Source: Candidatus Poribacteria bacterium
GTDB taxonomy: Bacteria; Poribacteria; WGA-4E; WGA-3G
Reading direction: 5' to 3'
Length of the DNA stretch: 39,471 bases
NCBI GenBank assembly: GCA_009841255.1
Contig: VXMD01000013.1
Coordinates: 3,950-43,420, forward strand
Positions within the stretch are counted from its first letter, which is position 1; every line of letters begins with the position of its first letter. Shown in pieces: positions 1 through 16,669 of this stretch. The notes under the pieces were generated by a model, which saw only the letters and a list, made by a program, of their open reading frames with translations, did no database searches and was not told where the DNA came from. The position numbers and the translations under genes were made by a program.

Positions 1-157
1 TATAAGACTTGACCCGGATTATGCTGGGGCATATAACAACCGTGGCAATGCTTACATCAGCAAAGGTGAGTTTGATAGAGCCATCGCGGACTTGAACGAA
101 GCTATAAGACTTGACCCGGATTATGCTGGGGCATATAACAACCGTGGCAATGCTTAC
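1..157 (+). repeat. 102-bp tandem coding repeat (TPR unit pair boundary)
   Basis: Bases 1-55 are repeated exactly at 103-157, a period of 102 bp, which equals one 34-residue TPR. The intervening part of the unit diverges. The repeat keeps the reading frame, so it reflects recent duplication or gene conversion of TPR units and not a CRISPR or a transposon. Confidence 0.9.
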
Positions 158-3100
158 TTCCAAAAAGGCGAATTTGATGATGCTGTTCAAGACTATAGTA
201 AAGCAATAGAACTGATACCCGATTACACCGAGGCCTATAGCAATCGCGGGAATGCTTATAACGGTAAAGGTAAGATTGGTCTGGCTATCAAAGACTATGA
301 TACTGCAATACAACTTAAGCCTGATTATGCCGAGGCATATTGCGGTCGCGGCAATGCTTACACGGACAAAAATCAACTTGATGCTGCGATTAAAGACCTG
401 AACAAAGCGATAGAGTTAAATCCAGAACTTGCGGCGGCATATAACAACCGAGGCAATGTTTACGCTCAAAATGATGAATATGACCTCGCTATTCAGGATT
501 ATGACAAAGCGATAAAACTTAATCCGACACTTGCCATAGCGTATAATCATAGGGGTATTACTCATCATCAGAAAGGGAATTCTGCTGAGGCGATAAAGGA
601 TTTGGACACAGCGATAGAACTAAACCCGAATGACGGTGAAGTTCATTTTAATCTCGGAAATATTTATCAAGACAACGGCGATAGCGATCTCGCTATTGCG
701 GCCTATACCACCGCGATTAAACTCAAATTTGACCGTGCTGGTACCTATTACAGCCGAGGGAACGCGCATCGCAGCAAAGGTGATTATAGGCGTGCTATTG
801 AAGATTATATAACAGAGACACAATTGAACCCAAGCTTCACTGATGCTTACGTTAATCTTGGGGTTGCGTATCGTGCCGTCAAGCAACTTGATCTCGCTAT
901 TGAAAGTTATGCTGTGATGATAGCCCTGGATCCAAACAGCCCTCTAACTTATGAAGCCTATAATAATCGCGGTTTGGTTTATCTTGACAAAAGGGATTTT
1001 AACCTTGCTATCCAAGATTTTGAAATGGCGATAAAACTTCAGCCAGAAGCCGTTCCTGGCTACGTCAATCGAGCGGCTGTCTATCTCTCGAGAAACAGGT
1101 GGTACCTAGCTATTGAAGATTATACTAAGGTGATAGAACTAAATCCTGAACTTGTAATGGCTTATTATGGTCGAGGAACAGCGTGGTTAAGCCTAAGAGA
1201 ATGGGAAAAAGCCAAAACTGACCTAATGACTGCCAAAGATAAAGGATTAGATATTACTGCTGCGTTTCACAATATCTACAGAGGCGTTGCAGCCTTTGAA
1301 CAGAAGCACGGTGTGCAGTTACCAGAAGATATAGTCATTCTACTGAGCTCTGAAGTAAAACCTAATAAGGCAACTATCTATAATGCTCGCGGTGTTGCTT
1401 ATGTCGCAAATGGTGAGTTTGATAAAGCAATAGGAGCGTTTACCAAGGCGATAGAACTGAATTCAAAGGATGCTGGTGTATACTATAATCGCGGTCTCAT
1501 TTACTGCAATCAAAGGAAATTTCGCGAGGCAATTACTGATTTTAATATGGCAATAAACCTCAAATTTGACGGTCCACTTGTTTACTTTTTCCGCGGTATT
1601 GCTCACCGCGGCTTATTGGTTTTTGATAAAGCGATTCAAGACTTCAACACAGCGATAAGTCTTGAACCTGATTATATAGATGCCTACTACAAGCGTGGGG
1701 AAACCTACTACAATCAGAATCAGTTTGACTTTGCTATTGAAAACTATAACAGAGTCATAGAATTAAATCCCGAATTTGCATCGGCTTATTTCAATCGTGG
1801 TTTAGCTCATCATGGCAAAAATGACCTTGAGCGTGCGATCACAGACTATAATAAAGCCATAGAACTAAATCCCAAACATGCTGGTGCCTATTACAGTCGA
1901 GGGAATGCTTACAACCATATAGGCAACTTTGACCTTGCTATTGAAGACTATACCAAGGCAGTACAACTTACGCCTGATGATGCTTTCATTTATAACAATC
2001 GAGGGGTAGCTTATTTGAAAAAAGGCGAAGTTAAGAGAGCTATTGAAGACTATACCAAAGCGATAGCACTAAAACCTGATGATGCTGGTGTCTACTACTA
2101 TCGCGGAGAAGCGAGGCTACACCTGCAAGAGTGGGAGAAGGCAAAAGAAGATTTAATGACTGCCAAGAATATGGGGGTAGATATCGTCGCAACATTTCGG
2201 AACGATTATAGAAATGTTGCCGCCTTTGAGCAGAAACATCAGGTTAAATTGCCAAAAGACATCATTGCCCTCGTCCGTCAAGGTTTTAGGCACCGCTACC
2301 CCATGGTGGAGAAAACTTTAACCCCGGATGGAAGGAACTTTGAGTCGCCGGAGGTATTGGATCTGCTGCAGCTGTTCCGGGACGCTGGTCCCCCCTTGGG
2401 TGAGTATCTCAAGGTGTCCCCCTCTTTCGGTATTGAAACAGTACCCACTGAAGTGTTTGTGGTAGATGGCAAGACGCGGGATAAACTCATTGCCGAACAC
2501 CCCGCATCGGTTAATATTTTGAAACCGTTTTTACAGGGATCAGATATCAAACGCTGGCAGGCAGAGCCACAGGATCAGTGGTTAATCTTTACCTACCGCG
2601 GTATAGAGATTAACGATTATCCTGCAATCCAGAGATACTTGGGAAAATACAAAGAACTACTGAGCAAAAGAGGAAACGAACAGGAATGGTATGAACTCCA
2701 AGCATCTGTTGAGGAGGCGGAGCATTTCGCGCAACCGAAACTGGTCTGTCCAAATCTCTATAATGAGCAAACTTTCGCCGTTGAGGCTGAAGGTCTTTAC
2801 TGTGGATATACCTGTTACGTTATTCCGACCGACGAGAAGTGGCTATGCGGTTTACTCAATACACTCCCTGTGGAGTGGTTCTATTCGCAAGTATCCAAAC
2901 AATTAGATGGTGGTAAACTTGAGGCACGCAGTGATTATATCAAGCAGATTCCTGTACCTGATATCGATGCAACACAGATAGATTTGGTTCGCAAACTCGT
3001 CGATTATCTTATCTATCTTAAGAAACAACCGACAATAAACAGTAAAGATTTGGCGGACTCCCGCGACTTCGCTGTGCTTAGATATTTTGAGTGGATCATC

Positions 3101-3334
3101 AACGGATTAGTTTATGAGTTTTATATGCCAGATCTGCTCCAGAATGCTGACAGAGATATTTTTACACATCTAATAGCAGAACAGTTGCCTGAGATAGATG
3201 AGATTCAAGGAGATAAAATGTCTGTGTTTCGTTCTCTCTATGAGCATTTATATGATAGAGAACACCCGGTTCGAGTAAACCTATTTTTTCAGGATAGTTT
3301 AAGACCTATCCGTATCATTGAGGGTAAGTGGTGA
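2..3334 (+). CDS. TPR-array protein with C-terminal TaqI/type IIG-like target-recognition domain (5' end outside window)
   Basis: The frame is open to the left edge, so the N-terminus is missing; the TTG at 92 is not a convincing start because TPR repeats continue upstream of it. About 20 TPR units of 34 residues are visible, with YNNRGNAY and AIxDYxKAIELNP signatures. They fall in two blocks. Each block ends in a W-EKAK-DLMTAK helix followed by a VAAFEQKH-V-LP-DI segment (near residues 370-415 and 680-726 counted from position 92). From about residue 812 the sequence changes to FLQGSDIKRW, YRGIEINDYPAIQRYL, EWYEL, PKLVCPN, LNTLPVEWFY and IPVPDID. These are hallmarks of the TaqI_C specificity domain of type IIG and PglX-like enzymes. 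The tail (LVYEFYMPDLL, EHPVRVNLFFQDS, RIIEGKW) also resembles type IIG C-termini. No methyltransferase NPPY motif or nuclease motif is visible, but either could lie upstream. It probably binds DNA or a partner together with the ATPase encoded next. Domain identity is judged by eye. Confidence 0.85.
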   Translation: MRLDPDYAGAYNNRGNAYISKGEFDRAIADLNEAIRLDPDYAGAYNNRGNAYFQKGEFDDAVQDYSKAIELIPDYTEAYSNRGNAYNGKGKIGLAIKDYDTAIQLKPDYAEAYCGRGNAYTDKNQLDAAIKDLNKAIELNPELAAAYNNRGNVYAQNDEYDLAIQDYDKAIKLNPTLAIAYNHRGITHHQKGNSAEAIKDLDTAIELNPNDGEVHFNLGNIYQDNGDSDLAIAAYTTAIKLKFDRAGTYYSRGNAHRSKGDYRRAIEDYITETQLNPSFTDAYVNLGVAYRAVKQLDLAIESYAVMIALDPNSPLTYEAYNNRGLVYLDKRDFNLAIQDFEMAIKLQPEAVPGYVNRAAVYLSRNRWYLAIEDYTKVIELNPELVMAYYGRGTAWLSLREWEKAKTDLMTAKDKGLDITAAFHNIYRGVAAFEQKHGVQLPEDIVILLSSEVKPNKATIYNARGVAYVANGEFDKAIGAFTKAIELNSKDAGVYYNRGLIYCNQRKFREAITDFNMAINLKFDGPLVYFFRGIAHRGLLVFDKAIQDFNTAISLEPDYIDAYYKRGETYYNQNQFDFAIENYNRVIELNPEFASAYFNRGLAHHGKNDLERAITDYNKAIELNPKHAGAYYSRGNAYNHIGNFDLAIEDYTKAVQLTPDDAFIYNNRGVAYLKKGEVKRAIEDYTKAIALKPDDAGVYYYRGEARLHLQEWEKAKEDLMTAKNMGVDIVATFRNDYRNVAAFEQKHQVKLPKDIIALVRQGFRHRYPMVEKTLTPDGRNFESPEVLDLLQLFRDAGPPLGEYLKVSPSFGIETVPTEVFVVDGKTRDKLIAEHPASVNILKPFLQGSDIKRWQAEPQDQWLIFTYRGIEINDYPAIQRYLGKYKELLSKRGNEQEWYELQASVEEAEHFAQPKLVCPNLYNEQTFAVEAEGLYCGYTCYVIPTDEKWLCGLLNTLPVEWFYSQVSKQLDGGKLEARSDYIKQIPVPDIDATQIDLVRKLVDYLIYLKKQPTINSKDLADSRDFAVLRYFEWIINGLVYEFYMPDLLQNADRDIFTHLIAEQLPEIDEIQGDKMSVFRSLYEHLYDREHPVRVNLFFQDSLRPIRIIEGKW

Positions 3335-4812
3335 AAATTACTAAAATTGAAATCAAAAACTTCAAAGCTTTCCGAGGACCAGATATAATTAATCTTAACG
3401 AGAATAGGCAGAAAGGCCAGAACCTTTTACTTTATGGCGAAAACGGAAGCGGGAAAACATCTCTGTATAAGGCATTAGAATTATTCCTTGAATCCAGTGA
3501 GAATGATTCTATAGAATTTATAGATCATAAAAACTTTTCTGCGATAGATGATGGTAATGATGGCTACGTAAGACTGCACTTTACACCCGCCCCAAATTTA
3601 CAGAAAACAACCTATAAATGGTCGGATTCAAAAGATGCTTTAGATGATACGAAAGTTCAACCGATAAGGGAGGCATCAAAAGCAAAAGGGTTTCTTGACT
3701 ATAAGGCACTTCTGGACACGCATTATCTTCATTATAAAGATGATACTGTAGATGTGTTTGATTTGATGATTAGTACACTCTTGAAAAACGTTATTAACGA
3801 CATAAGTGTCCCGTCGCGTAGTTTTGCGGAGGAATGGCAGGACCTGTCGGAATTGCTTTTTCCAGAACAAGGAGAAGAAGAAGTTGAAATTCCACAACAA
3901 CAATTTGCAGATTTCAACACAGGTATTGAAAATATATTAACCAGACTGAAAGCGGATGCAAATAAAATACTTCCTAAGTTTGGATACGAAAACACAGTTG
4001 TTGAACTTGACCTTGAATATCACGAACCGAAACTCAACAATGATACTAACAAGTATGAGTCTCCGCAGATCCTCCTAACGGTAAGTTTCCTTGGTAGTAT
4101 TCGCCCTAAGCATCATCAATTTTTGAATGAGGCAAAACTATCGGCAATTGCCCTTTCCATTTTTTTTGCCGGACTTCAACTTCAACCACCCAGCGACCTG
4201 AAGATTCTTGTTATAGATGACGCGCTCATTGGCTTGGATATTTCACATCGCTTGCCTCTGCTTGATATTCTGGATGAAAGAGATTTTGCAAAATACCAGA
4301 TTATCTTGATGACTTATGACCGAACATTTTATGAGATAGTCAAAAAGCGTAAATCTGGAGATACAAAATGGAAAGCTGCCGAACTCCGTTGTGGCAAGGT
4401 TGATGGATATGATATACCAGTCTATGTAGAAGATAAAACATACCTTGAAAGAGCGAGGGAATATCTTGATGTCAATGATTACAAGGCTTGTGCTGTTTAC
4501 GTTCGTACTGCTTATGAAGCAACAATTAAAGGGTATTGTGAGAAAAACAACATTGAGGTCAAATACCGAGAGAATATAAATGAATTGAACAGCAATGATT
4601 TTTGGACCCTCATAAGAGATAGGAAAGTACCGGATTCAAAAGGAAATAATAAAACAAAACGCCTGATAAAACTTGCTCTTGTTAAAAAGATAGAATTGGC
4701 TAGAAAATTTACTCTAAATCCGCTAAGCCATGCTAACATTGTGAATATTCCCAGAAAAGAACTTGAAGATGCGATTGAAGCAGCCGAATGGCTTGAGGAT
4801 GCGTTAGCATAA
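3331..4812 (+). CDS. RecF/SMC-like AAA ATPase, partner of the TPR-specificity protein
   Basis: The N-terminus has the RecF/SbcC-type opening (ITKIEIKNFKAFRG) and a Walker A GENGSGKTS at residues 36-44. Residues 291-297 are a Walker B (KILVIDD), followed by a GLD D-loop-like segment. An LNEAKLSAIALSIFFA stretch just before it occupies the place of the ABC/SMC signature region. The protein (493 residues) has no long coiled coil. After about residue 370 comes a helical C-terminal domain with ACAVYVRTAYEATIKGYC and LNPLSHA. That domain could be HEPN-like, but the R-to-H spacing is not the usual RX4-6H. The GTG at 3331 is preferred over the GTG at 3328: it has GAGGG six bases upstream and overlaps the previous TGA as GTGA, which suggests translational coupling. 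The ATPase call is firm; the role in restriction or anti-phage defence is inferred from its neighbour. Confidence 0.85.
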   Translation: MKITKIEIKNFKAFRGPDIINLNENRQKGQNLLLYGENGSGKTSLYKALELFLESSENDSIEFIDHKNFSAIDDGNDGYVRLHFTPAPNLQKTTYKWSDSKDALDDTKVQPIREASKAKGFLDYKALLDTHYLHYKDDTVDVFDLMISTLLKNVINDISVPSRSFAEEWQDLSELLFPEQGEEEVEIPQQQFADFNTGIENILTRLKADANKILPKFGYENTVVELDLEYHEPKLNNDTNKYESPQILLTVSFLGSIRPKHHQFLNEAKLSAIALSIFFAGLQLQPPSDLKILVIDDALIGLDISHRLPLLDILDERDFAKYQIILMTYDRTFYEIVKKRKSGDTKWKAAELRCGKVDGYDIPVYVEDKTYLERAREYLDVNDYKACAVYVRTAYEATIKGYCEKNNIEVKYRENINELNSNDFWTLIRDRKVPDSKGNNKTKRLIKLALVKKIELARKFTLNPLSHANIVNIPRKELEDAIEAAEWLEDALA

Positions 4813-4919: not shown

Positions 4920-6683
4920 ATGATAAATCCCTATATGAAAGAGGAAGTTAGATCTGCACTCACACGCGGCACGGCTTCTTTATTGGCACAACACTGCAAA
5001 GACGGAAACTTTGAGGGACAGCTCTCCTCAAGTACCTTCCCTACCTGCGCGTATGCGTGGATCGAACTCGTCCGAGGCGAGACCCCGGATCAGGCTCTGA
5101 TTGAATGGTTTATCGCAAATCAGAACGAAGATGGCGGCTGGGGATTAGATACCGCGAATGTTTCAAATGCAGAAGCGACCCGATTCGTTCACCTAATATT
5201 GGAACAAACCCATCAACGTTCACCGGGTACAGCCCTCCAAGAACTGCTGGCATCGGTTCCGAAATTCGCACCTCACCTTGCCTTAGTCAAATTGGCTTAT
5301 GCGGCTTTTAATGAGTTCGATTGGAACGAATTGACGCTCTCAGAAAACGCCCTACCGCTCATGAGACTCGCAAGACAATTGATGAAGATTCCGCTGCTTG
5401 GCAATCGGTTGAAGCCGCCGAGACACCGTCTGCCGCCCGTTGCACTTTTCAACACGCCAATGTTCGATGCTCTCTTCATTGCGGAGCAGCATACCCTCGT
5501 GCCCGTCTTCATCATGATTGAGCTGAATACGGCAAGACGTCCTGAAATGATAGCCGCTCTCTCGGCATGGTTGAAAACGCATGTTCTCAGCGATGGGAGC
5601 TGGTTTCGAGTGAACTACATTACTGCCCTTTCGGTTTTGGCACTTATTGAGCTCCAAGAAAAGTGGGAAGCAGATGAGGAGATTGCGGGATTTATCGAAC
5701 GCGGTATGGGGTGGCTCCGAATGACGCGAAATCGTGACGGCGGATGCCGAGAGGCATTAAACCTGAATGTGTGGGACACAGCATTGAGCATTATTGCACT
5801 CACGGAGGTGTACGCGACACACAATGAATCGGGGGTACAAATCCTTCCTACAGATGAACTTACGGATAAAGTGAAACGCGCCGCGCAGTGGCTCGTCACC
5901 CATCAAAATGAAGATGGCGGATGGGCGTTTTCAGGATTAGACGATAGCACACTTCCAAGCGATGCCGATGATACAGCACTTGGGACGCTTGCACTGATTC
6001 GCTCACTCCTTGTGGATTCACCGATCGATCGAGAGGCATTAGAGAACTCAGTTCAGCGTGGCATTGAATGGTTAAAGACCCAACAGGTACGCGATGGAAG
6101 TTGGAGCACATATCAACCCGGTCAAGGAGATGTTGGTTGTGTAAGTATCACAGCACATGCAATTGAAGCACTTCTCGCTTTTGATCAGAGCGATATCCCT
6201 GATATACCGTATGTTCGCGAGGCGATGATTACTGGTGTCTACTGGCTCCGCAAACAAATTAATCGCGATGGGTATTGGCGAGATCTCTGGTTAGCGAAAG
6301 ATACATACGGCACTGCTTGTGCTATAGCAGCATTTGTCAAGGTCGGACTCAAAAATGCTCCCGAAGTTCAGCGTGGTGTCGAATGGTTGGAGCGCACCCA
6401 AAATGCGGATGGTGGATGGGGAGAAGATATGTTTGGGAATCCGACTGAAAGCACAGTGGAACAGACGGCTTGGAGCACCTATGCCCTGCTGCTTGCGAAT
6501 CCCGAAAATACTGCGGCTGAACGGGGGACAGCGTTTCTGCTCAAACACCAGCGAGAAGACGGTTCCTGGCCCGAACAGTGTGTCGGCATCTATTGGGAGA
6601 TCATCGGCGGTTACGCCGATCCGATTTATGCATCGGTTTTTCCGATACTTGCCCTCAATCAACAATCACAAATATCTCCTTAG
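4920..6683 (+). CDS. Squalene-hopene-cyclase-like class II terpene cyclase
   Basis: A 587-residue protein of the squalene/hopene cyclase superfamily, whose members cyclise squalene or other polyprenes by protonation at the membrane surface. Residues 348-351 are D-A-D-D followed by TA, the DXDD acid motif. QW-type repeats (Q-x-x-DGGW/DGSW) recur near 68-75, 271-276, 329-335, 389-395, 495-500 and 544-550. VWDTALSI at 284-291 and YASVFPILAL near 570-579 match conserved blocks of the cyclase family. The length is slightly under that of typical hopene cyclases (about 630) and the N-terminal half is divergent, so the substrate may not be squalene. The ATG at 4920 has GGAGGA 14 bases upstream, a rather long spacing; the Met codon at 4935 is an alternative. 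A glycosyltransferase follows 6 nt downstream. The 107-bp spacer before the gene holds only a weak 5-bp hairpin (4877-4891). Confidence 0.85.
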   Translation: MINPYMKEEVRSALTRGTASLLAQHCKDGNFEGQLSSSTFPTCAYAWIELVRGETPDQALIEWFIANQNEDGGWGLDTANVSNAEATRFVHLILEQTHQRSPGTALQELLASVPKFAPHLALVKLAYAAFNEFDWNELTLSENALPLMRLARQLMKIPLLGNRLKPPRHRLPPVALFNTPMFDALFIAEQHTLVPVFIMIELNTARRPEMIAALSAWLKTHVLSDGSWFRVNYITALSVLALIELQEKWEADEEIAGFIERGMGWLRMTRNRDGGCREALNLNVWDTALSIIALTEVYATHNESGVQILPTDELTDKVKRAAQWLVTHQNEDGGWAFSGLDDSTLPSDADDTALGTLALIRSLLVDSPIDREALENSVQRGIEWLKTQQVRDGSWSTYQPGQGDVGCVSITAHAIEALLAFDQSDIPDIPYVREAMITGVYWLRKQINRDGYWRDLWLAKDTYGTACAIAAFVKVGLKNAPEVQRGVEWLERTQNADGGWGEDMFGNPTESTVEQTAWSTYALLLANPENTAAERGTAFLLKHQREDGSWPEQCVGIYWEIIGGYADPIYASVFPILALNQQSQISP

Positions 6684-8593: not shown

Positions 8594-11563
8594 CTACTCC
8601 TCTGGTGTCTCCTTTCCCGTTTGGGAATTCCCATTACCATTATTCTGCCAATTGTCTGCTTTCTCCTTGAGTTTTTCGAGGTCTTCAGGGTTCTTAATGT
8701 CTACAATGTGTGGTGTAATAATAATGACGATCTCAGCATCTTCGACAGCGGTTTCGGTGCTTTTAAAGAGCCGCCCAAGCAAGGGAATGTCGCCCAGAAT
8801 CGGAAGTTTATTCTCTACTTGCTTCTGCTTCTTACGGATGATACCACCGACGACAATCTGCTGACCGTCCTCGACATCAATATAGACACTGATAGAATTG
8901 TCATCGGTAATGGGTGCGTTGAAATCCGTAAACTCAATGAAGTTGCTGGCACTGATATTCTCAATATCCAATCCGATAGTTCGCTTGCCGTCCTCGCCGA
9001 CTTGTGACTTGGCGATATAAGGCGTGAGCGAGATGTTGATACCTACGGGTGGATCGATGAAGTCGTAGTTGAAAAGCGGTTGTGAGACAGCCTCACCTAA
9101 AATGCTGGTCGTATCAACACTCTGGAGATAGGGGATGCGGCGACCGCTACTCCACGTAGCGTTCCAGCTATCACGGGTCAAAAGCGAGGGCGTCGAAAGG
9201 GTTTGCACCTTGTTCTCGCGCATCAGCGTGTGGAGGAGTGCCATATACTCCTTGGTTGCCAAACCGTAGTTAAACCCCGAAATTTCCTGTCCAAGCCCGA
9301 GCTGTGAGTCGAGTTCCCCGATAAGGGGATTTCCGGGTCTTGCGGACACACCGAAAATTTTATTCTCTTTCGCAGTAAGCTCAATGCCGAGTTTGGTTGT
9401 TTCATCAAGCGTCACTTCGAGGATCTGGATGTCGATCCAGACCTGACCGCGGACGAAGTCTAACTTTTGAATGAGTGCCTTGACAGCTGGGAGGTACCGT
9501 TGCTGCGTCGTGATAATCAGCGAATTTGTATCTGAATCCGCAAAAACAGTGACTTTTCCGCGCAGGGAATTGATGTCTTGCTGTTCCTGTCTGCCCCCAG
9601 AAGCAAAGAAACGGCTGAAGCTAAAACCCCCGGCATCTTCCTCTCCCGCCCAGACCTGTTCAAGGACTTGTTGGAGATGATCGGCACTCCCGTATTCGAG
9701 ACGAATGGCTTCCGTAACCTCTTTTTGACTTTCCGGTGTGGGGACATCCATGGAGTCAATAAACTCCGTGATGAGGTCAAAGTTGCGTTGTGTGGCGGTC
9801 GAAACGATAACGGCGTTGAGTGTCGGATACGGTTCGGCAGTGACGTTCCCGGCGAGTGAACCTTGTGTTTGATTGCGGTTGCGTTCAGCGAGGAAAAAGA
9901 AAAAGTTGTTATTGTTTTGGGAACTGCCTTGATAGACGTTGTTGATGACAGCGGCGACGTTCTCCGCGTCGGCATACTTGAGTTTATACATGCGGGTTCC
10001 CCACTCCTGGTCCGGCATGTTGACATCGAGTCTTTTGATGAGCGCATCAATGGTTTCAAAGTTCTGGGCGCTCGTTGATATAAGGATAGCGTTGAGACGT
10101 AAATCCGCAACGAGATGCACCTCGCCTTGGACTCCGAAACCAGTGGTGTTTTCAGTCGGTTCCCGATCCCTGCGTCGCCACCACGGAAGTTCTCTGTCTG
10201 TCCCTGCGCTGCCACCTTCAAAGAGGTCTTGTAGACTTGGGGCAAGGGTTTCAGCATCGGCGAACTTCAGAAAATAGAGTCTGATTTCTTCTTGGGTTTG
10301 CTCTTGATCAAGTTCATTGATGACTTTCTCAATAATAGAGAAGTTGCGTGGATCCGATGAAACGACAACGACGTTGATTCGATCGTTATGGGAAACATTG
10401 ACAGTACCGACAATGCCTTGGGCGGTATCGATACCCTGTTCGCGTTGATAAGTTCTCAATTTCGCACGATCCCAGGCGTCCATTCTGCGTCGATTATCGG
10501 GGGCATCACCGCTAAGTACTTCTTGGAGGGTTTGTGCGACATCTGCAGCGGTTGCGTATTTAAGTCGGAATGTGCGTATTTCGGTTGTGACGTTGGGAGC
10601 AATGTCAAGCTCCTTGATAATTTCTTGGAGAAAAACGAGGTTCGCCTCGGACGCTTTGAGTACAAGTGAATTTGAGTTAACATCGGCGATAATTTTGATT
10701 CTGCCTTGAAGGACTTCATAGCCGGTGCCATCGGCTTTCATTTGCGCTGCTGCGGCTTTTGCCTGCTCTGCATCACCCCCGAGCCGACCGCGTTGGCTTT
10801 TGCCCTCCTCACCCCCTTCGCCTTCCTCTTGAAAAACGTTCGTAAGCGTCCGTGCCAACGGTTCAGCTTCAGCGTAAGTGAGCGGCACGATGAGAATCTT
10901 TAAAGGGAATCGTTCCCCTTCATCTGCGATCTGGAGAATGGAAACAATGCGGTGTATATTAGAAGCGACATCGGTGATGACGAGGGCATTCGTAGCGGAA
11001 TCTGCGAAAATATTTGCTTGTTTATTGAGGAGCGGTTTGAGTCGATCTACCTGTTCCGATGCGACAACGGTATCTAATTGGATGATATACGTTTGGATCT
11101 CGTCGGTCATGTCAACCCGTTCGGGATTCGGTGGGATACTTTTAACAATGCCTTTCGTCGCTATTGCACGTGCGAAGGTTGTGACTAAGAGGGTACTATC
11201 GGTTTGAATGAGTGTAAGGTCATATTGGGTGAGGACGGTTTTGATCTTTTCAATAACTTCTTCAATCGTCACATTATTGAGGTTAATCAGTGAGAATTTC
11301 TTGTCTTTAATGTCTTCTTCACTTGCGATGATCGTGAGGTCAGCCTCCCGCGAGAGCCATTCAAAGAGTCCTTTGAGTTCTTGGCTTGTGAAGTTAAAGT
11401 CGAAACGGATTGCCCGTCCTTGTTCGTCAGTTTCGGCGACGCGCATTGTAGGTTGCTGTTCTTGTGCATAAAGCTCAGCAATCCCAACAATAAGCACTCC
11501 TAAACAGACTAGAAAAATAAATGAGAACCGACCAGGATTATTGTGATTTATGTGATTTACCAT
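8594..11563 (-). CDS. gspD: Type II secretion system secretin GspD, expanded N-domain array
   Basis: Outer-membrane secretin, the export pore of the T2SS. The ATG at 11563 is preferred over the in-frame ATG at 11635, because the latter lies inside gspM and AGAGG sits 10 bases upstream of 11563; this gives 989 residues. A signal peptide (FSFIFLVCLGVLIVGIAELYA) is followed by an STN/N0-like domain (about 55-125). Six secretin-N-like modules follow (about 135-700), each ending in a xNxLxIxxxxxxxxxIxxxIxxLD pattern; typical GspD has N0-N3. The secretin core runs from about 700, with WIDIQILEV, TLSTPSLLT, VVGGIIRKKQ, LPILGDIPLLGRLF and VIIITPHIV. Asn-rich loops (SSQNNNNFFFF) and Glu/Gly-rich loops occur inside modules. 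It is the last gene of the T2SS cluster. Confidence 0.93.
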   Translation of the reverse strand: MVNHINHNNPGRFSFIFLVCLGVLIVGIAELYAQEQQPTMRVAETDEQGRAIRFDFNFTSQELKGLFEWLSREADLTIIASEEDIKDKKFSLINLNNVTIEEVIEKIKTVLTQYDLTLIQTDSTLLVTTFARAIATKGIVKSIPPNPERVDMTDEIQTYIIQLDTVVASEQVDRLKPLLNKQANIFADSATNALVITDVASNIHRIVSILQIADEGERFPLKILIVPLTYAEAEPLARTLTNVFQEEGEGGEEGKSQRGRLGGDAEQAKAAAAQMKADGTGYEVLQGRIKIIADVNSNSLVLKASEANLVFLQEIIKELDIAPNVTTEIRTFRLKYATAADVAQTLQEVLSGDAPDNRRRMDAWDRAKLRTYQREQGIDTAQGIVGTVNVSHNDRINVVVVSSDPRNFSIIEKVINELDQEQTQEEIRLYFLKFADAETLAPSLQDLFEGGSAGTDRELPWWRRRDREPTENTTGFGVQGEVHLVADLRLNAILISTSAQNFETIDALIKRLDVNMPDQEWGTRMYKLKYADAENVAAVINNVYQGSSQNNNNFFFFLAERNRNQTQGSLAGNVTAEPYPTLNAVIVSTATQRNFDLITEFIDSMDVPTPESQKEVTEAIRLEYGSADHLQQVLEQVWAGEEDAGGFSFSRFFASGGRQEQQDINSLRGKVTVFADSDTNSLIITTQQRYLPAVKALIQKLDFVRGQVWIDIQILEVTLDETTKLGIELTAKENKIFGVSARPGNPLIGELDSQLGLGQEISGFNYGLATKEYMALLHTLMRENKVQTLSTPSLLTRDSWNATWSSGRRIPYLQSVDTTSILGEAVSQPLFNYDFIDPPVGINISLTPYIAKSQVGEDGKRTIGLDIENISASNFIEFTDFNAPITDDNSISVYIDVEDGQQIVVGGIIRKKQKQVENKLPILGDIPLLGRLFKSTETAVEDAEIVIIITPHIVDIKNPEDLEKLKEKADNWQNNGNGNSQTGKETPEE

Positions 11564-11582
11564 GATGAAGGAACCTCTTATT

Positions 11583-11600
11583 GCTGACAACTGATAACTA
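11583..11600. repeat. ACTGATAACT-type degenerate repeat between gspM and gspD
   Basis: The short spacer between the gspM stop and the gspD start contains GCTGACAACTGATAACTATT. This is one member of a degenerate ACTGATAACTG / GTCGGTTGTCAGT family seen also at 15092-15110, 17552-17590, 19587-19698 and inside gspK. Confidence 0.6.
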
Positions 11601-12872
11601 TTAAAATATTCGAGCGATGAGAAGCATATCCACATTCAGATTTGTCCCACCTTCAGAATTTCGGCCGCGTGCTCCCGGCCGCGTGCCTGTTTGCTTATCA
11701 GCGGAGATCCGTAAATCTCGCACCGTGAGCCATTTGGCACCCGTTTCGATGAGATGGTTCAAGTTAACGAGTTTCTCAAGATCTGTTTTAAATTTCATTT
11801 CGACTGTGTAGTGTTCCGTTTGATATGTCAGGGGTGCAAGCGCGAGTTGCTCTAAAAGCGTTGCGCGCTGCTCCTGAATCTTCTCAATGTATTTAACAAG
11901 CGCGTATTGGAGTTCAGTTATATCTACGGAATTCTCTGATTGCGCGAGAATCTCCAAAAGGACACTATCGCTTCGCAATTGGATTTCGATGGTAGCGGGC
12001 TTTGCACCAATACCCAAGATGCCGGGTGTAGCGGCGGTTTTAACTCTATGGAGTTGCGTCTCAAAGAAATCCTGCTTTGAATCCGTCGCACCCCGAAGTT
12101 GCTGTGTCATCCTGCTTTTGATAAATGCGGCAAGTTTGACTCGGATAGGGACGGGTATTCCCTCTGGAAGTGAGGCGAATTTCCACTGCGCCGCAGTATC
12201 CATTGAACGCGTCGATTGTGCTTTATCCGTGAGTTCCGTTTCCTCTGTTGTTGATTCGGTTTCAGGTCTTGAACCCTCTGTTTTACTCGTTTTCTCATCT
12301 ATTTCAGCTTCCATTCCCGATAACCAGGCATCCATTAACATGTTGAAGGTATCTTCTTCTGCTTGCCGCTCAGATACTTCAGCAAGTTCTATTCCCTCCA
12401 TCTCTATATGCTTAAGATAGAGATAGAGAACAAGATTTCCTCGGTTCTGCCCTGTTAGTTTCTGTGTTTGCTTGGTGGTTCCGGGCTTCGTAAGGAGTTG
12501 ATAATTCTGTTGAATGCCGGCGCGTCTCATGAGCGCGTCAATACGAGATCTAATAACAGTTTCCGGTAGTTCGGTATCAAAGAGGGTCTTAGCAGGCTGT
12601 GAGTTCGTACGTCCCTGCGGATTCTCGATGAGTGTCAGTCCAGTCTCTTTGTAAATCTCGGATTCAATGGGTTGGAGCACCTCTGCAGCACGCACCAAAT
12701 TTTGAGTCCGTAACAACTGTTCTTGTTTCGCTTTAGTATCTTGATTGATAAATAGGCGATAAAAAGCGGGACCTCCCTGCATGGCGAGCAAGATTAAAAG
12801 CACGCCCGCCAAGATACCAAGCAAGATTCGACTTCGCGGTGTTAATTGGAGATCCAGTTCCATCTTTTTCAT
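11601..12872 (-). CDS. gspM: GspM/PilO-like T2SS inner-membrane protein
   Basis: Position between gspL and gspD and topology (short cytoplasmic N-terminus, one TM at about residues 17-34, coiled segment, periplasmic domain) match GspM/PilO, which pairs with GspL in the inner-membrane platform. At 423 residues it is much longer than usual GspM (under 200). The middle (about 185-235) is a Glu/Ser/Thr-rich linker (KTSKTEGSRPETESTTEETE). Two segments resemble PilO-type ferredoxin folds (around 105-175 and 300-385). The start at 12872 (MKKMELDL) has AAGG close upstream; the ATG at 12863 is equally possible with better spacing. Sequence conservation in this family is low, so the call rests mainly on order and topology. 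Confidence 0.75.
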   Translation of the reverse strand: MKKMELDLQLTPRSRILLGILAGVLLILLAMQGGPAFYRLFINQDTKAKQEQLLRTQNLVRAAEVLQPIESEIYKETGLTLIENPQGRTNSQPAKTLFDTELPETVIRSRIDALMRRAGIQQNYQLLTKPGTTKQTQKLTGQNRGNLVLYLYLKHIEMEGIELAEVSERQAEEDTFNMLMDAWLSGMEAEIDEKTSKTEGSRPETESTTEETELTDKAQSTRSMDTAAQWKFASLPEGIPVPIRVKLAAFIKSRMTQQLRGATDSKQDFFETQLHRVKTAATPGILGIGAKPATIEIQLRSDSVLLEILAQSENSVDITELQYALVKYIEKIQEQRATLLEQLALAPLTYQTEHYTVEMKFKTDLEKLVNLNHLIETGAKWLTVRDLRISADKQTGTRPGARGRNSEGGTNLNVDMLLIARIF

Positions 12873-13075
12873 GTGCCTTGCGGTTCAATGACATGAGATT
12901 GAAATTTGACGCACCTTCCTTGAAAGTCGCCTGCGCCGTTGTTGCAGGCTTGCGCTTTGATTCACAAAGAACAGTGCCCGTATTCAATTATGCGAGTTGT
13001 CCCTTTGTAGCATAACCTGTTAGGTTGTGCTATCCCCTACTCCGTTTAGAAACGTATGACTATTATGAGGTTCGC
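12873..13075. repeat. gspL-gspM spacer with dispersed repeats and a 10-bp hairpin
   Basis: This 203-bp spacer carries a CCTTGCGGTT element (12878-12887). A GCCTG-x-GCCGTTGTTGCAGGCT element (12929-12950) has a copy at 18225-18246 and a 6-bp GCCTGC/GCAGGC stem. A strong palindrome (13009-13031) has arms AGCATAACCT and AGGTTGTGCT, nine of ten Watson-Crick pairs plus one G-T, and a 3-base loop. It may be an RNA hairpin or processing site inside the T2SS transcript, or simply a mobile repeat. Confidence 0.6.
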
Positions 13076-14860
13076 TTATTTTGTTTTTTCGTTCATTTCG
13101 TTTTCAAAGGTTTCCTGCATAGGAGGTCCAACATAAGGTTCCATATTCGCTACCTTATCGATTTGTGGTTCGGGCAATGGATAGCGTTTTTTAGCAAACG
13201 CTTTTACAGCGGATGCTGTTAGATTACACCGGACCTGTACTTGGAAAATTTGTTTCCTATCTTGAGAAATTGTTGTGACCTCGCCCGGACGGACATTGGT
13301 AAATACGCCTGTCCGATCGAGCGCACTTAAGAGCGTATTAATGGCATTGTGAGATGTACTTTCCAAGTTAAATGTAATGCGCGCTGTTGTGGGTTCATGA
13401 AGATTGGTGATATTAAAATTAGTCCATGCCACCTGTGTCCTATCACCAAACATCTCACTAAGGGCATGCAAAATATCAAGCGGCGAGACCTGATGCGCTA
13501 ACATATCGGTGAGTGCTAACTCCTTCCCAAGTTGCACTTTCGCGGCAGACATCGGTTGTGCGTAATACGCGAGTTGTGCCTCTACTGCTTCACTTCTATA
13601 CTGTTGCGAACGGTGGAGCATATAGAGCCCAAAAAGAATACCGCCGATTATCAAAACACACAATCCAGCGACGGCAAAGAGTTGGCGCTGCTTTGTTGTT
13701 TGCGCGAGTGTATTAACCGTTTCCTTCGGCAATAAAGAGACTGGGGTTGTTGACTTCAATGCATTGAGGCCTGCACCTAAAGGGACAGCGAGGGTATCAC
13801 CCCATTCATCAAGAATAGCTTCTACTTCTGGATGCGCGGGGTGGAGGGCAACACTGGAATGCTGTTGAACGGCGTGAAGCGGGTTCCACAGTTGTGTTGG
13901 GATGTTGAGTTCCACTTCACAAGTGGATGCGAGGTCGCGAATCCGGGCACTGCCACCACACAACCAGAGTTCAGTTTCCGTCCCTGACTCGGAGAGATTC
14001 TGATATCCATCGGTGTTCACTTCCGCTCCATAATGTGTAGTGGCGGCAATAGAACGCCGGAGTTCACTAAGAAATTGTGTTGTCCAAGTGTATGTAGGGG
14101 TTTCGCGTGCCGAGATGTGCTGTTTTTCCTCTGCTGCCGTTTCAACATCTATATTCAAAGTCCGACTCAGATGTTCAGAGAGATGGTTACCGCCGAAACG
14201 GAAGCTCCGCGAAAATCGGAGTTTTCCATCCTGCATGAAACAGAAGTCTGTTTGTTCGGCACCGATGTCAACAATAAATGTAGGCTTTGTGCATCCACTG
14301 CTTGCGGCGACCTCCGCTATGGCGATCATTGAAGGCGTAACTGCTGATACGGAAACGTCAATCTGGTCAAGGAGATCCAAGTAGTTTGCAACTGTCGTTC
14401 GTCGTGTGGATATCAATTCTACGGAAGAGGTTTCTGGTGTCTGTTGGACATCGTGATACGTAAAGATAGCCTCTTCAACTCGAAAGGGGAGTTCGGCTTC
14501 CGCAGCGATTGCGACGATACTTGCGAGTTGTTCATCCGTTACAGCCGGCAAATTGGATAAGCGTTTAGTATTCACTAAGGATCGGGGAAGGGCGAGAACT
14601 ACTTCTGTCCTATTTCGATTGAACATTGTCCTGCAAGCCTCTATAGGCTTGCGCCAGTGGATACCGCTTTCTGCCGGTGGATTTCCTAAAGAATCCCAGA
14701 GGTGTTTCACTGATTCAGATACCAGCAACCGGTCATCTTTGTCTGGATACGTCACAACGCTAGCATTGGTAAGATGCACGGTTGTAAACGATTGTTCCAG
14801 TTGAACGATTTTCGCTGTATTTGTGCCGATGTCTATCGCCACGACTCGATTTGTTGCCAT
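13076..14860 (-). CDS. gspL: GspL-like protein: PilM-type actin-fold domain fused to PilN-type domain
   Basis: Residues 1-370 form an actin-like ATPase domain of the PilM/GspL type. Phosphate loop 1 is VVAIDIGTNTAKIV at 6-19, phosphate loop 2 is FIVDIGAEQTDF at 195-206, and an adenosine-loop-like WLCGGSARI is at 299-307. A TM helix at about 394-414 is followed by a coiled region and a periplasmic PilN-like fold (about 440-570). The protein therefore joins in one chain what type IV pilus systems make as PilM plus PilN, the arrangement typical of GspL. It should couple GspE in the cytoplasm to GspM and the pseudopilus. The ATG at 14860 has AAGG 12 bases upstream, which comes from a dispersed repeat element. 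Confidence 0.88.
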   Translation of the reverse strand: MATNRVVAIDIGTNTAKIVQLEQSFTTVHLTNASVVTYPDKDDRLLVSESVKHLWDSLGNPPAESGIHWRKPIEACRTMFNRNRTEVVLALPRSLVNTKRLSNLPAVTDEQLASIVAIAAEAELPFRVEEAIFTYHDVQQTPETSSVELISTRRTTVANYLDLLDQIDVSVSAVTPSMIAIAEVAASSGCTKPTFIVDIGAEQTDFCFMQDGKLRFSRSFRFGGNHLSEHLSRTLNIDVETAAEEKQHISARETPTYTWTTQFLSELRRSIAATTHYGAEVNTDGYQNLSESGTETELWLCGGSARIRDLASTCEVELNIPTQLWNPLHAVQQHSSVALHPAHPEVEAILDEWGDTLAVPLGAGLNALKSTTPVSLLPKETVNTLAQTTKQRQLFAVAGLCVLIIGGILFGLYMLHRSQQYRSEAVEAQLAYYAQPMSAAKVQLGKELALTDMLAHQVSPLDILHALSEMFGDRTQVAWTNFNITNLHEPTTARITFNLESTSHNAINTLLSALDRTGVFTNVRPGEVTTISQDRKQIFQVQVRCNLTASAVKAFAKKRYPLPEPQIDKVANMEPYVGPPMQETFENEMNEKTK

Positions 14861-15109
14861 CTTTTAATTTTACCTTGCGGAGTAATACGCAGAAATACGC
14901 AGAAATACCCAAGCAAAAACACCCCAAGCAAAAACATATGCGCTTGAACTTTGATGTGTGTTCTGTATATCCACCTGCGTGTTTTTGCAAACGCTAAAAT
15001 CCAATGCGAAGAAAGTATTTCTGCGTATTGTTGCAGGCTACGGGTTTAGGACTATCTGAAAAAATAAAGCGTGTTAGACGAAAACCTCTTTACTGATAAC
15101 TGGTGACTC
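14861..15109. repeat. gspK-gspL spacer built from dispersed repeats
   Basis: The spacer holds a TTTTAATTTTACCTTGCGG element (14862-14880) directly before gspL on the minus strand. After it come repeated ATACGCAGAA units and a CAGAAATACCC/AAGCAAAAAC block; 23 bp of this (14898-14920) recur exactly at 34847-34869. A TTGTTGCAGGCTA fragment (15029-15041) and an ACTGATAACTGGTGACT string (15093-15109) follow. No coding potential is seen. Confidence 0.7.
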
Positions 15110-16669
15110 TTAAAAACCCTGTTGCCAATACTGTACGGTTATTTGGTCGCCTGTCCGATCAATGATGCCAATACAGGACGAAATAACTTTGCCCGCAAGA
15201 TCAACACCCTTTGCCTCAATACGATACCCGTGCGAACGGTAGGTTACCGAATCGACAACCTCGCGGAACGTTGCGAAGTCAATTTCGTCTACTTGCGAGA
15301 GTTGTGCGATGTTCGTGAACGGATTTCCTTTTACCTCATCTTCAGTAAAACCTTGGACCTGCGAGGCATCGGATACATCTTCTTCACGGCGTTCGACGAT
15401 TGCTTGTGCCTTTTGTGGGTCCATCCCGGGCAGTAGTGCTAATATCTCAGGCGGTGCTGTATTTACATTAATAAGCCCTTGGCGCGTTTCAGCATCTTTT
15501 AGTGTTATTTTGTCAACAATTCCGATGAATTCCTGCTGCGTTAACATCTTTACCTCTTTAATTGCATCGATATTCTGGAAAAGTCCCTGCGTCTCACGAT
15601 GGCTGACGATTCGTTCGGCAATACCTTGGTCAATGCCTTCTAAGGACTGCAAAGTTTCGACATCGGCGGTATTGATATTGACTTTCCCACCTTCATCATT
15701 GGCTGTCGGCTGGCGGTTGCCGGTTTCCGTCGGTGAAGTTACATCCTCTTTTTGATCGCTGGTCGCTGACTGCTGATTGCTATCTTCGGTTGTCAATTGG
15801 TCTTGGATGTTGTTGAAAAGTTCATCGGAAACTGCTTGAACATCCATGAGGGCAGCAAACCTATCAAAATCACGTTGCTGGATGAGTGATTCTGCTTCAG
15901 CTTGTGTAAACACAGGTTGATTTTGCTGTGCAGTAACTTTCGTCAACTCGTCTGCATCCGCCGTGTTGACGTTGACCAGCGGCTCTCCGCTCGGATCCGT
16001 GCTCGCATCAACCGAATAGATAGTAGTCAAGCCAACAAGTCCCAATGGAGCGGTTGTCGATTGTCGGCTGCTGGCTTCTGTTAGTAAAGCGACAGTTCCC
16101 GAAGGTTGACTGTTGGTGGCTATTTCTTGTTGCGGGTTTCCGTAGAGAAGTTCGGATGTTATGCCTTCGACCCGAGCGAGATCTCGAACAGTGCGATAGG
16201 GGCGTCCTTCCACAATTTTGTTGGCAAGTTCTTCAGTGCGCGCCTCATCTGGAGAAGCCCCTGCCTGTGCCAGCAAATTACTGAGAAGTCCTACGTCGGC
16301 GGTATTGATATTAACTTTAGATGCCTCATCTACAACTGTCACTTGATAATTTAAGAAATTGCCAACCTGAATCCCATCCTCAACCTGCCCTTGGATCGGT
16401 TCAGCCCACGTTTCGCCGAGTGCATCAAAAGGGGTTTGGTCCCCGCGCATAACGGCGAGGGTCCACTCGAAGCCTGCTCTTGCGGCGTAGTGGAACTTGG
16501 ACCTGTCTAAGAAATTCCGTTGGGTTCGCTGCTCTATGTGGATTGAATAGAGCAACTGTGCCGCAAGAATGGACAGAATCGTGAGTATCCAGAGTGTTGA
16601 GATGAGGGATAAACCGCTCTGTTCCTTGTAGAATATGTAGGAATTCCGTTTTATGAAGTGTGCCATCAA
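15110..16669 (-). CDS. gspK: GspK pseudopilus tip protein with four VNxNTA motifs
   Basis: The N-terminus EQSG/LSLISTLWILTILSILAAQLL is a prepilin-like segment cleaved after Gly19. It lacks Glu at +5, as is normal for GspK, the minor pseudopilin at the pseudopilus tip. GspK usually contains helix-hairpin-helix-like segments opening with VN-NTA. Here there are four: VNINTAD at 119-125, VNVNTAD at 232-238, VNINTAD at 330-336 and INVNTAP at 400-406. Each precedes hairpin-like sequence such as LLPGMDPQKAQAIVERR. At 519 residues it is longer than the family norm (about 320). The linkers between the modules (about 185-210 and 295-328) are Gln/Ser/Thr-rich and lie on ACTGATTG-type repeat DNA (15703-15780, 16050-16113). 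The start is one of two adjacent Met codons. Confidence 0.88.
   Translation of the reverse strand: MMAHFIKRNSYIFYKEQSGLSLISTLWILTILSILAAQLLYSIHIEQRTQRNFLDRSKFHYAARAGFEWTLAVMRGDQTPFDALGETWAEPIQGQVEDGIQVGNFLNYQVTVVDEASKVNINTADVGLLSNLLAQAGASPDEARTEELANKIVEGRPYRTVRDLARVEGITSELLYGNPQQEIATNSQPSGTVALLTEASSRQSTTAPLGLVGLTTIYSVDASTDPSGEPLVNVNTADADELTKVTAQQNQPVFTQAEAESLIQQRDFDRFAALMDVQAVSDELFNNIQDQLTTEDSNQQSATSDQKEDVTSPTETGNRQPTANDEGGKVNINTADVETLQSLEGIDQGIAERIVSHRETQGLFQNIDAIKEVKMLTQQEFIGIVDKITLKDAETRQGLINVNTAPPEILALLPGMDPQKAQAIVERREEDVSDASQVQGFTEDEVKGNPFTNIAQLSQVDEIDFATFREVVDSVTYRSHGYRIEAKGVDLAGKVISSCIGIIDRTGDQITVQYWQQGF

Follow-up and report, generated by a model that had tools for sequence, protein, structure and literature searches.

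A restriction-type recognition domain on a TPR protein, paired with a Rad50-like ATPase: a candidate DNA-sensing defence module in Poribacteria

Restriction systems normally cut DNA at an unmethylated motif and protect self DNA by methylating that motif. PrrC and RloC are ATPase-RNases (anticodon nucleases) linked to type I restriction. In DndFGH, an inactive methyltransferase with target-recognition domains (TRDs) is found together with an ATPase (PMC10853773). Here, we analyze a stretch of 39,471 nucleotides from Candidatus Poribacteria bacterium (assembly GCA_009841255.1, contig VXMD01000013.1, positions 3,950 to 43,420; hereafter the window), the first 4,812 positions of which encode a tetratricopeptide repeat (TPR) protein ending in a TRD, followed by an ATPase. 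An original prediction, made from the window alone, had proposed this pair as a defence module. At the level of sequence, the composition, conservation, coupling, ancestry and effector exchange of the pair can be taken as established, and its conserved core consists of the recognition domain, a C-terminal tail and the ATPase. The explanation that we favour, and regard as probable, is that the two genes form a DNA-sensing defence module, which arose from a type IIG restriction enzyme and its partner ATPase.

Organization of the two genes

The features are given in window coordinates; P0006 is the 354-amino-acid (aa) C-terminal region of the TPR-TRD protein and P0002 the ATPase.

2..2269, plus strand: TPR array of the first protein, which begins upstream, across a 10-N gap, with an ATG and 274 further aa at G000:C13:3118-3940
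1163..1351, plus strand: first copy of a TPR 'cap' (WEKAK.DL.TAK..G.DI...F.N.Y..VAAFEQK..V.LP.DI), also present in other TPR proteins of the same genome
2093..2275, plus strand: second copy of the cap, closing the TPR part immediately before the recognition region
2270..2521, plus strand: linker and pre-TRD segment, common to type IIG enzymes (PADLOC type IIG profile, alignment A2)
2522..2956, plus strand: TaqI_C target-recognition domain (P0006 residues 85-229; PF12950, M.BseCI and CamA matches)
3080..3331, plus strand: conserved C-terminal tail (P0006 residues 271-354), common to ATPase-linked type IIG enzymes; proposed ATPase dock
3328..4812, plus strand: Rad50/RecF/SMC-like ATPase (P0002; profile and fold matches)
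3331..3334, plus strand: GTGA overlap of stop and start codons (sequence; junctions of 41 relatives)
3436..3459, plus strand: Walker A motif GENGSGKT, invariant in the family up to T/S (alignment A1)
4441..4809, plus strand: helical C-terminal domain of the ATPase with a conserved LN.LxH motif; weak HEPN/DUF4145 similarity below cut-offs
4920..6683, plus strand: squalene-hopene-cyclase-like gene, outside the module, marking its insertion site

The TPR-TRD protein occupies a single open frame (2-3334, plus strand), in which the TPRs are followed by the TaqI_C-type region. A home-made TPR profile called 19 repeats in the part of this frame that has a start codon. The predicted recognition domain is borne out by several searches. 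Pfam TaqI_C is matched end to end (PF12950, profile positions 1-118 of 118, E = 1.3e-14, 54.9 bits versus a gathering score of 26.5), and a family profile search of the PDB retrieves M.BseCI (7qw5, 2.5e-16). Foldseek, run with an AlphaFold model of modest quality (pLDDT 63), retrieves CamA (8.9e-7), M.BseCI and, weakly, MmeI. A profile was needed for the PDB match, a single-sequence phmmer search of the region giving none. Similarity to the HsdS fold, the type I specificity subunit, was not significant in Foldseek (1yf2, E = 0.53), and the domain is single, not paired. The type IIG-like character of this end of the protein was also upheld, the PADLOC type IIG profile covering residues 29-269 of P0006, that is, pre-TRD segment and TRD (1.9e-25).

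No enzymatic half accompanies this C-terminus. The [DNS]PP[YFW] methyltransferase motif is absent from the window protein and from 40 relatives. No PD-(D/E)xK-type nuclease was seen in the recovered N-terminus of the window protein, which is all TPR, and Pfam on the scanned relatives returned only TIR, FRG, HNH_5 or TPR. The window begins directly after a 10-N scaffold gap. The original prediction had placed the 5' end outside the window, which is correct, since the same protein starts at an ATG at C13:3118 in the upstream stretch L009. It had also suggested that the missing enzyme could be encoded there, and this part did not stand: the 274 further aa are all TPRs (Pfam TPR_1, 1.3e-72), with neither methyltransferase nor nuclease. 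An enzyme in the same chain had been set beforehand as the refuting test, and the absence of methyltransferase and nuclease motifs holds with the N-terminus recovered. The second refuting outcome, a C-terminus that resembles no TaqI_C domain in structure, did not come about either, given the TaqI_C, M.BseCI and CamA matches. An ordinary type IIG enzyme with its N-terminus beyond the window is ruled out by this upstream sequence. By its sequence, lacking both the methyltransferase motif and an N-terminal nuclease, the window protein does not qualify as a type IIG enzyme.

A 93-bp stretch is exactly duplicated across the scaffold gap (window 1-160 and C13:3847-3949). The assembly has the TPR array in collapsed or incomplete form and, because the gap falls between near-identical repeat units, the TPR count is a minimum. 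A chimera at the gap can be dismissed: the TPR-to-TRD junction is contiguous, and since closed single-contig genomes have the same architecture, it is not a product of misassembly.

The stop codon of the first gene overlaps the start of the ATPase gene, as originally noted. The start that agrees with most relatives is the GTG at 3331, giving a 4-bp GTGA overlap, from which we infer translational coupling of the two genes. The compact SMC/RecF-like ATPase with a helical C-terminal domain was likewise recovered. It carries GENGSGK (Walker A), the signature-like LNEAxLSA and DD..IGLD (Walker B), and its AlphaFold model (pLDDT 80) fits the heads of Rad50 (1.5e-11) and SMC1 (4.5e-12). Walker A, signature-like motif, Walker B and an ABC-type head place it in the RecF/Rad50/SMC superfamily. 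Here too profiles were needed, single-sequence phmmer against the PDB yielding only weak P-loop matches. Among the systems described in PADLOC (AriA/PARIS, Septu, Gabija, MADS, Lamassu, BREX, DISARM), no convincing family-level match to the ATPase was found; the best were AriA (1.9e-11, residues 3-144 only) and mad3 (2.2e-8), and none of the further genes of these systems is present in the module.

Conservation, ancestry and exchange of N-terminal domains

Co-occurrence of the two genes, which the original prediction had proposed as a check, is conserved. Forty-one loci of the order, the window included, were mapped in detail. An intact ATPase gene lies downstream of the TPR-TRD gene in 35 of them. 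At L046 a contig end truncates it, and the remaining five (L055, L069, L073, L078, L080) carry it in broken form or have lost it. The gene junction overlaps almost throughout. Of the 73 genomes of the order, 39 have ATPase relatives, which, when intact, adjoin the TRD protein wherever this is checkable. Within the order, the 354-aa C-terminal region has many full-length relatives. The TPR-TRD family is sharply separate (full-length matches at or below 1e-163, the next best at about 1e-84, truncated copies aside), and no member of it was seen in the 12 genomes that belong to the phylum but not to the order. A TIR-TPR-TRD protein with the ATPase is also found in one Gemmatimonadota and two Latescibacterota metagenome-assembled genomes (MAGs), which, judging from isolate names, may originate from sponges. 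This wider distribution, obtained by a pattern-based scan of contigs with metagenome and viral collections outside its reach, is a lower bound. Both genes are under purifying selection, with ratios of non-synonymous to synonymous substitution rates (dN/dS) of 0.12-0.16 for the recognition region and 0.19-0.24 for the ATPase. A pseudogene reading is disfavoured by these ratios and by the conservation.

The same ATPase is found in 12 of 390 sampled cyanobacterial genomes (profile E values from 1e-138 to 1e-188), and the cyanobacterial ATPases form one clade on the ATPase tree. At most of the cyanobacterial loci read, the gene preceding the ATPase gene overlaps it by 4 bp and encodes a complete type IIG enzyme having an NPPY motif and the same C-terminal tail. 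A Verrucomicrobiales locus has type IIG enzyme and ATPase in the same arrangement, with the ATPase broken. Two-gene units of a type IIG gene and an overlapping ATPase gene were read at L196-L205 and L184 in these two groups. On a Nostoc conjugative plasmid, the ATPase is accompanied only by a protein of 338 aa that consists of TRD and tail, without an adjacent methyltransferase. The tail is absent from the plain type IIG enzymes of Poribacteria that were compared. Since this tail and this ATPase go with complete type IIG enzymes in cyanobacteria and Verrucomicrobiales, the simplest reading of the Poribacterial protein is a type IIG-ATPase system in which TPRs and effectors have taken the place of the catalytic half. 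In this sense no enzyme is missing: relatives carry TIR, FRG or HNH domains N-terminally, and those of cyanobacteria are type IIG enzymes in full.

The TRD varies differently in the cyanobacterial enzymes and in the TPR family. In the cyanobacterial type IIG-ATPase enzymes, mean pairwise identity is 45% for the TRD (minimum 18%) and 66% for the tail (minimum 56%), as expected if specificity diversifies. In the TPR family, the TRD is conserved like the tail (65% and 61% identity). Because the TRD is conserved and its similarity does not follow that of the TRDs of neighbouring type IIG enzymes, the TPR-TRD protein probably reads a fixed DNA feature that is not tied to a neighbour's methylation motif.

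Classed by motif, the N-termini of the 41 loci comprise 21 with TIR, 5 with FRG, 3 with HNH and 12, the window among them, with no such domain. Pfam places TIR_2 (5.4e-27, 4.5e-17) and FRG (4.1e-17, 2.6e-12) ahead of the TPRs in relatives. At least 14 changes of N-terminal class are required on the ATPase tree. On this tree, the window (none) groups with L042 (TIR) and L043 (FRG) in a single clade with full support, and identity among their recognition regions is 85-88%. Loci L048 and L050 encode a separate FRG-TPR protein immediately upstream. Because the TPR cap recurs in many further effector-TPR proteins of the window genome, the repeats may well serve as recombination joints for effector exchange.

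Other TPR proteins of the window genome may be described here. Two FRG-like proteins (L112:773-3817 and L115:3288-5168) end in the same cap; one of them adjoins a TIR-like protein without TPRs, which points to a genomic pool of effector-TPR genes. At L113:3-4826 (C50), a protein read from its sequence as an apparent trypsin-like protease followed by TPRs, TIR and more TPRs adjoins an OLD/TOPRIM-like ATPase.

Neighbouring genes, proposed function and alternatives

Defence genes near the module, another check proposed at the outset, were often present. Of the 41 loci, 13 have a type IIG gene upstream in the same orientation, about 0.15 being expected by chance under a rough model that treats loci as independent. 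Two of these loci also carry HKD-Snf2 (L061) or Thoeris (L060). Other neighbours are type III Mod (window, L076), Hma (L050), NERD-UvrD (L057) and GmrSD (L081). The TRDs of the adjacent type IIG enzymes differ freely, and their similarity is uncorrelated with that of the TPR-TRD proteins (Spearman -0.12), so that co-specificity with the neighbouring enzyme was rejected. The Mod methyltransferase gene of the window locus lies upstream (L009:1094-2929) and is divergent from the module. Its product is 93% identical to that of L076:7055-8950, similarly divergent from a TPR-TRD module; the TRD regions of the two modules share only about 55% identity. Neither Mod gene is directly adjoined by a res gene; the genes that come next are an uncharacterised 339-aa gene and a DDE transposase.

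The module adjoins the squalene-hopene-cyclase-like gene in the window, L045, L048, L056 and L076, and in L045 and L056 its opposite flank is a conserved 676-aa gene. The insertion site can be empty, because both flanking genes are directly adjacent in G068. Further into the window (8594-16669, minus strand), genes for a secretin with six N domains and for PilM-like and T2SS-K-like proteins form a type II secretion / type IV pilus-like cluster. In another Poribacteria genome (L244:4124-15857, G016:C2), the gene for a 1681-aa type IIG enzyme, which has two TaqI_C domains, precedes a tandem set of four genes for stand-alone TRD proteins of 452-501 aa, 46-69% mutually identical and sharing the N-terminus MRIVTRDDIQ.. 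These look like swappable specificity subunits for the type IIG enzyme.

In the defence module that we favour, the TRD would bind a fixed DNA feature, and the tail would hold the Rad50-like ATPase, which would check or clamp DNA in an ATP-dependent manner. On invader DNA, the complex would activate the N-terminal effector, leading to NAD+ loss (TIR) or DNA cutting (HNH), the output of FRG being unassigned. As a guess, the TPR array of the window allele, having no recognisable effector of its own, might recruit one in trans, on a TPR partner, or the output might come through the C-terminal domain of the ATPase. Restriction-type recognition would thereby be joined to an abortive-type output in place of cutting and methylating. 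Such a module would act against invaders, and there is a real chance of a new form of sensor-effector immunity. More tentatively, although still as a serious possibility, a restriction TRD freed from methyltransferase and nuclease may have become a sequence-reading DNA sensor that, with the Rad50-like ATPase, triggers interchangeable TIR, FRG or HNH effectors, with TPR arrays as recombination joints, and would represent a new kind of immunity.

Several points weigh against a defence role of this kind. About half of the loci have no known defence gene in the stretch read, and the 12 loci without a recognisable effector domain include the window itself. The HNH_5 match in relatives (2.9e-5) is under the Pfam cut-off. 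The contact between tail and ATPase is deduced from co-occurrence, and a Syntrophaceae type IIG enzyme (L163:425-4366) has the tail with no detectable ATPase in its MAG, which breaks a strict rule that the tail means an ATPase. The module also lacks a cognate methyltransferase by which self DNA would be spared.

Four other explanations were weighed. The type IIG genes upstream, the type III methylase beside the window and L076 modules and the stand-alone TRD cassettes at L244 would suit a protein that serves the adjacent enzyme, type IIG or type III, as an additional specificity subunit or as a guard. This is unlikely, as neighbouring type IIG enzymes have TRDs of their own whose similarity does not track that of the TPR-TRD protein, neither enzyme is encoded in the stretch read at 26 of the 41 loci, and the core has its own ATPase and occurs on the Nostoc plasmid with no methyltransferase beside it. 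It is comparably improbable that the C-terminal domain of the ATPase is itself a toxin, a HEPN-like RNase, with the TPR-TRD protein as sensor, the effectors as add-ons and the window allele complete. PrrC/RloC offer a precedent, weak HEPN or DUF4145 matches occur in all five Poribacterial C-terminal domains scanned, and N464 and H468 are invariant (alignment A1). However, every match is below the curated cut-offs (best 0.0037), the cyanobacterial, verrucomicrobial and Prevotella domains gave none, and the canonical Rx4-6H motif is lacking, LN.LxH having its closest conserved R nine residues ahead of the H. A HEPN nuclease at this position is thus not established.

The closeness of the ATPase head to Rad50/SMC heads would also fit a sequence-reading Rad50-like complex for DNA repair or chromosome maintenance. 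We consider this quite improbable in view of the patchy presence in the order, the multiple copies, the insertion site empty in one relative, the TIR/FRG effector-like domains and the defence neighbours. Finally, a decayed remnant of a type IIG-plus-ATPase system, its TPR fusion a chance product of recombination among many TPR genes, might be expected in a genome rich in similar TPR arrays able to recombine, and several copies elsewhere do have broken or lost ATPases. Nevertheless, the pair is intact in most loci, its overlapping junction is retained almost throughout, it is present in other phyla and both genes bear the mark of purifying selection, so that decay is very improbable.

If the favoured explanation is true, two classes of bacterial immunity are linked: recognition is uncoupled from cutting and methylation and wired to abortive-type effectors, with the ATPase as the likely gatekeeper. 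The question would then arise of how a sequence reader spares self DNA in the absence of a cognate methylase. The analysis also brings to light type IIG-plus-ATPase pairs, and it shows that close relatives exchange effector domains on a conserved sensor.

Comparison with known systems

All domains of the module are known; their combination, as read from sequence, falls outside type IIG enzymes and matches no PADLOC system. No published description of the TPR-TRD fusion or of type IIG-ATPase pairs was found in a literature of limited coverage, most subscription papers and preprints lying outside it. Single-chain type IIG enzymes (Eco57I/BpuSI-like) share with the window protein the C-terminal TaqI_C TRD and the pre-TRD segment (P0006 about 29-269). 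In contrast to them, the window protein has no methyltransferase motif and no identified nuclease part, and its family has the 84-aa tail, TPRs and effector-like domains in place of the catalytic half, an ATPase partner and a TRD that does not diversify. The pairs of cyanobacteria and Verrucomicrobia have the same ATPase, 4-bp overlap and TRD-plus-tail C-terminus as the window pair; they differ in that the partner is a complete methyltransferase-bearing type IIG enzyme with a variable TRD.

PrrC/RloC embody a similar idea, an ATPase-controlled lethal effector attached to restriction recognition. However, the module shows no HsdMSR partner and no convincing match to PrrC/RloC, and effector-like TIR, FRG or HNH domains are carried by the recognition protein. 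With Thoeris and other TIR-effector systems, the module shares TIR as a probable output, here in half of the loci; unlike in Thoeris, there is no ThsA in the module (a separate ThsA/ThsB pair occurs at one locus, L060) and the sensor would be a restriction TRD with an ATPase. Like the module, DndFGH retains restriction-type TRDs without modification activity, together with a nucleotide-driven partner (PMC10853773). It differs in that DndH keeps an eroded methyltransferase and a restriction endonuclease, the ATPase is another one, and neither TPR nor TIR is present (PMC10853773).

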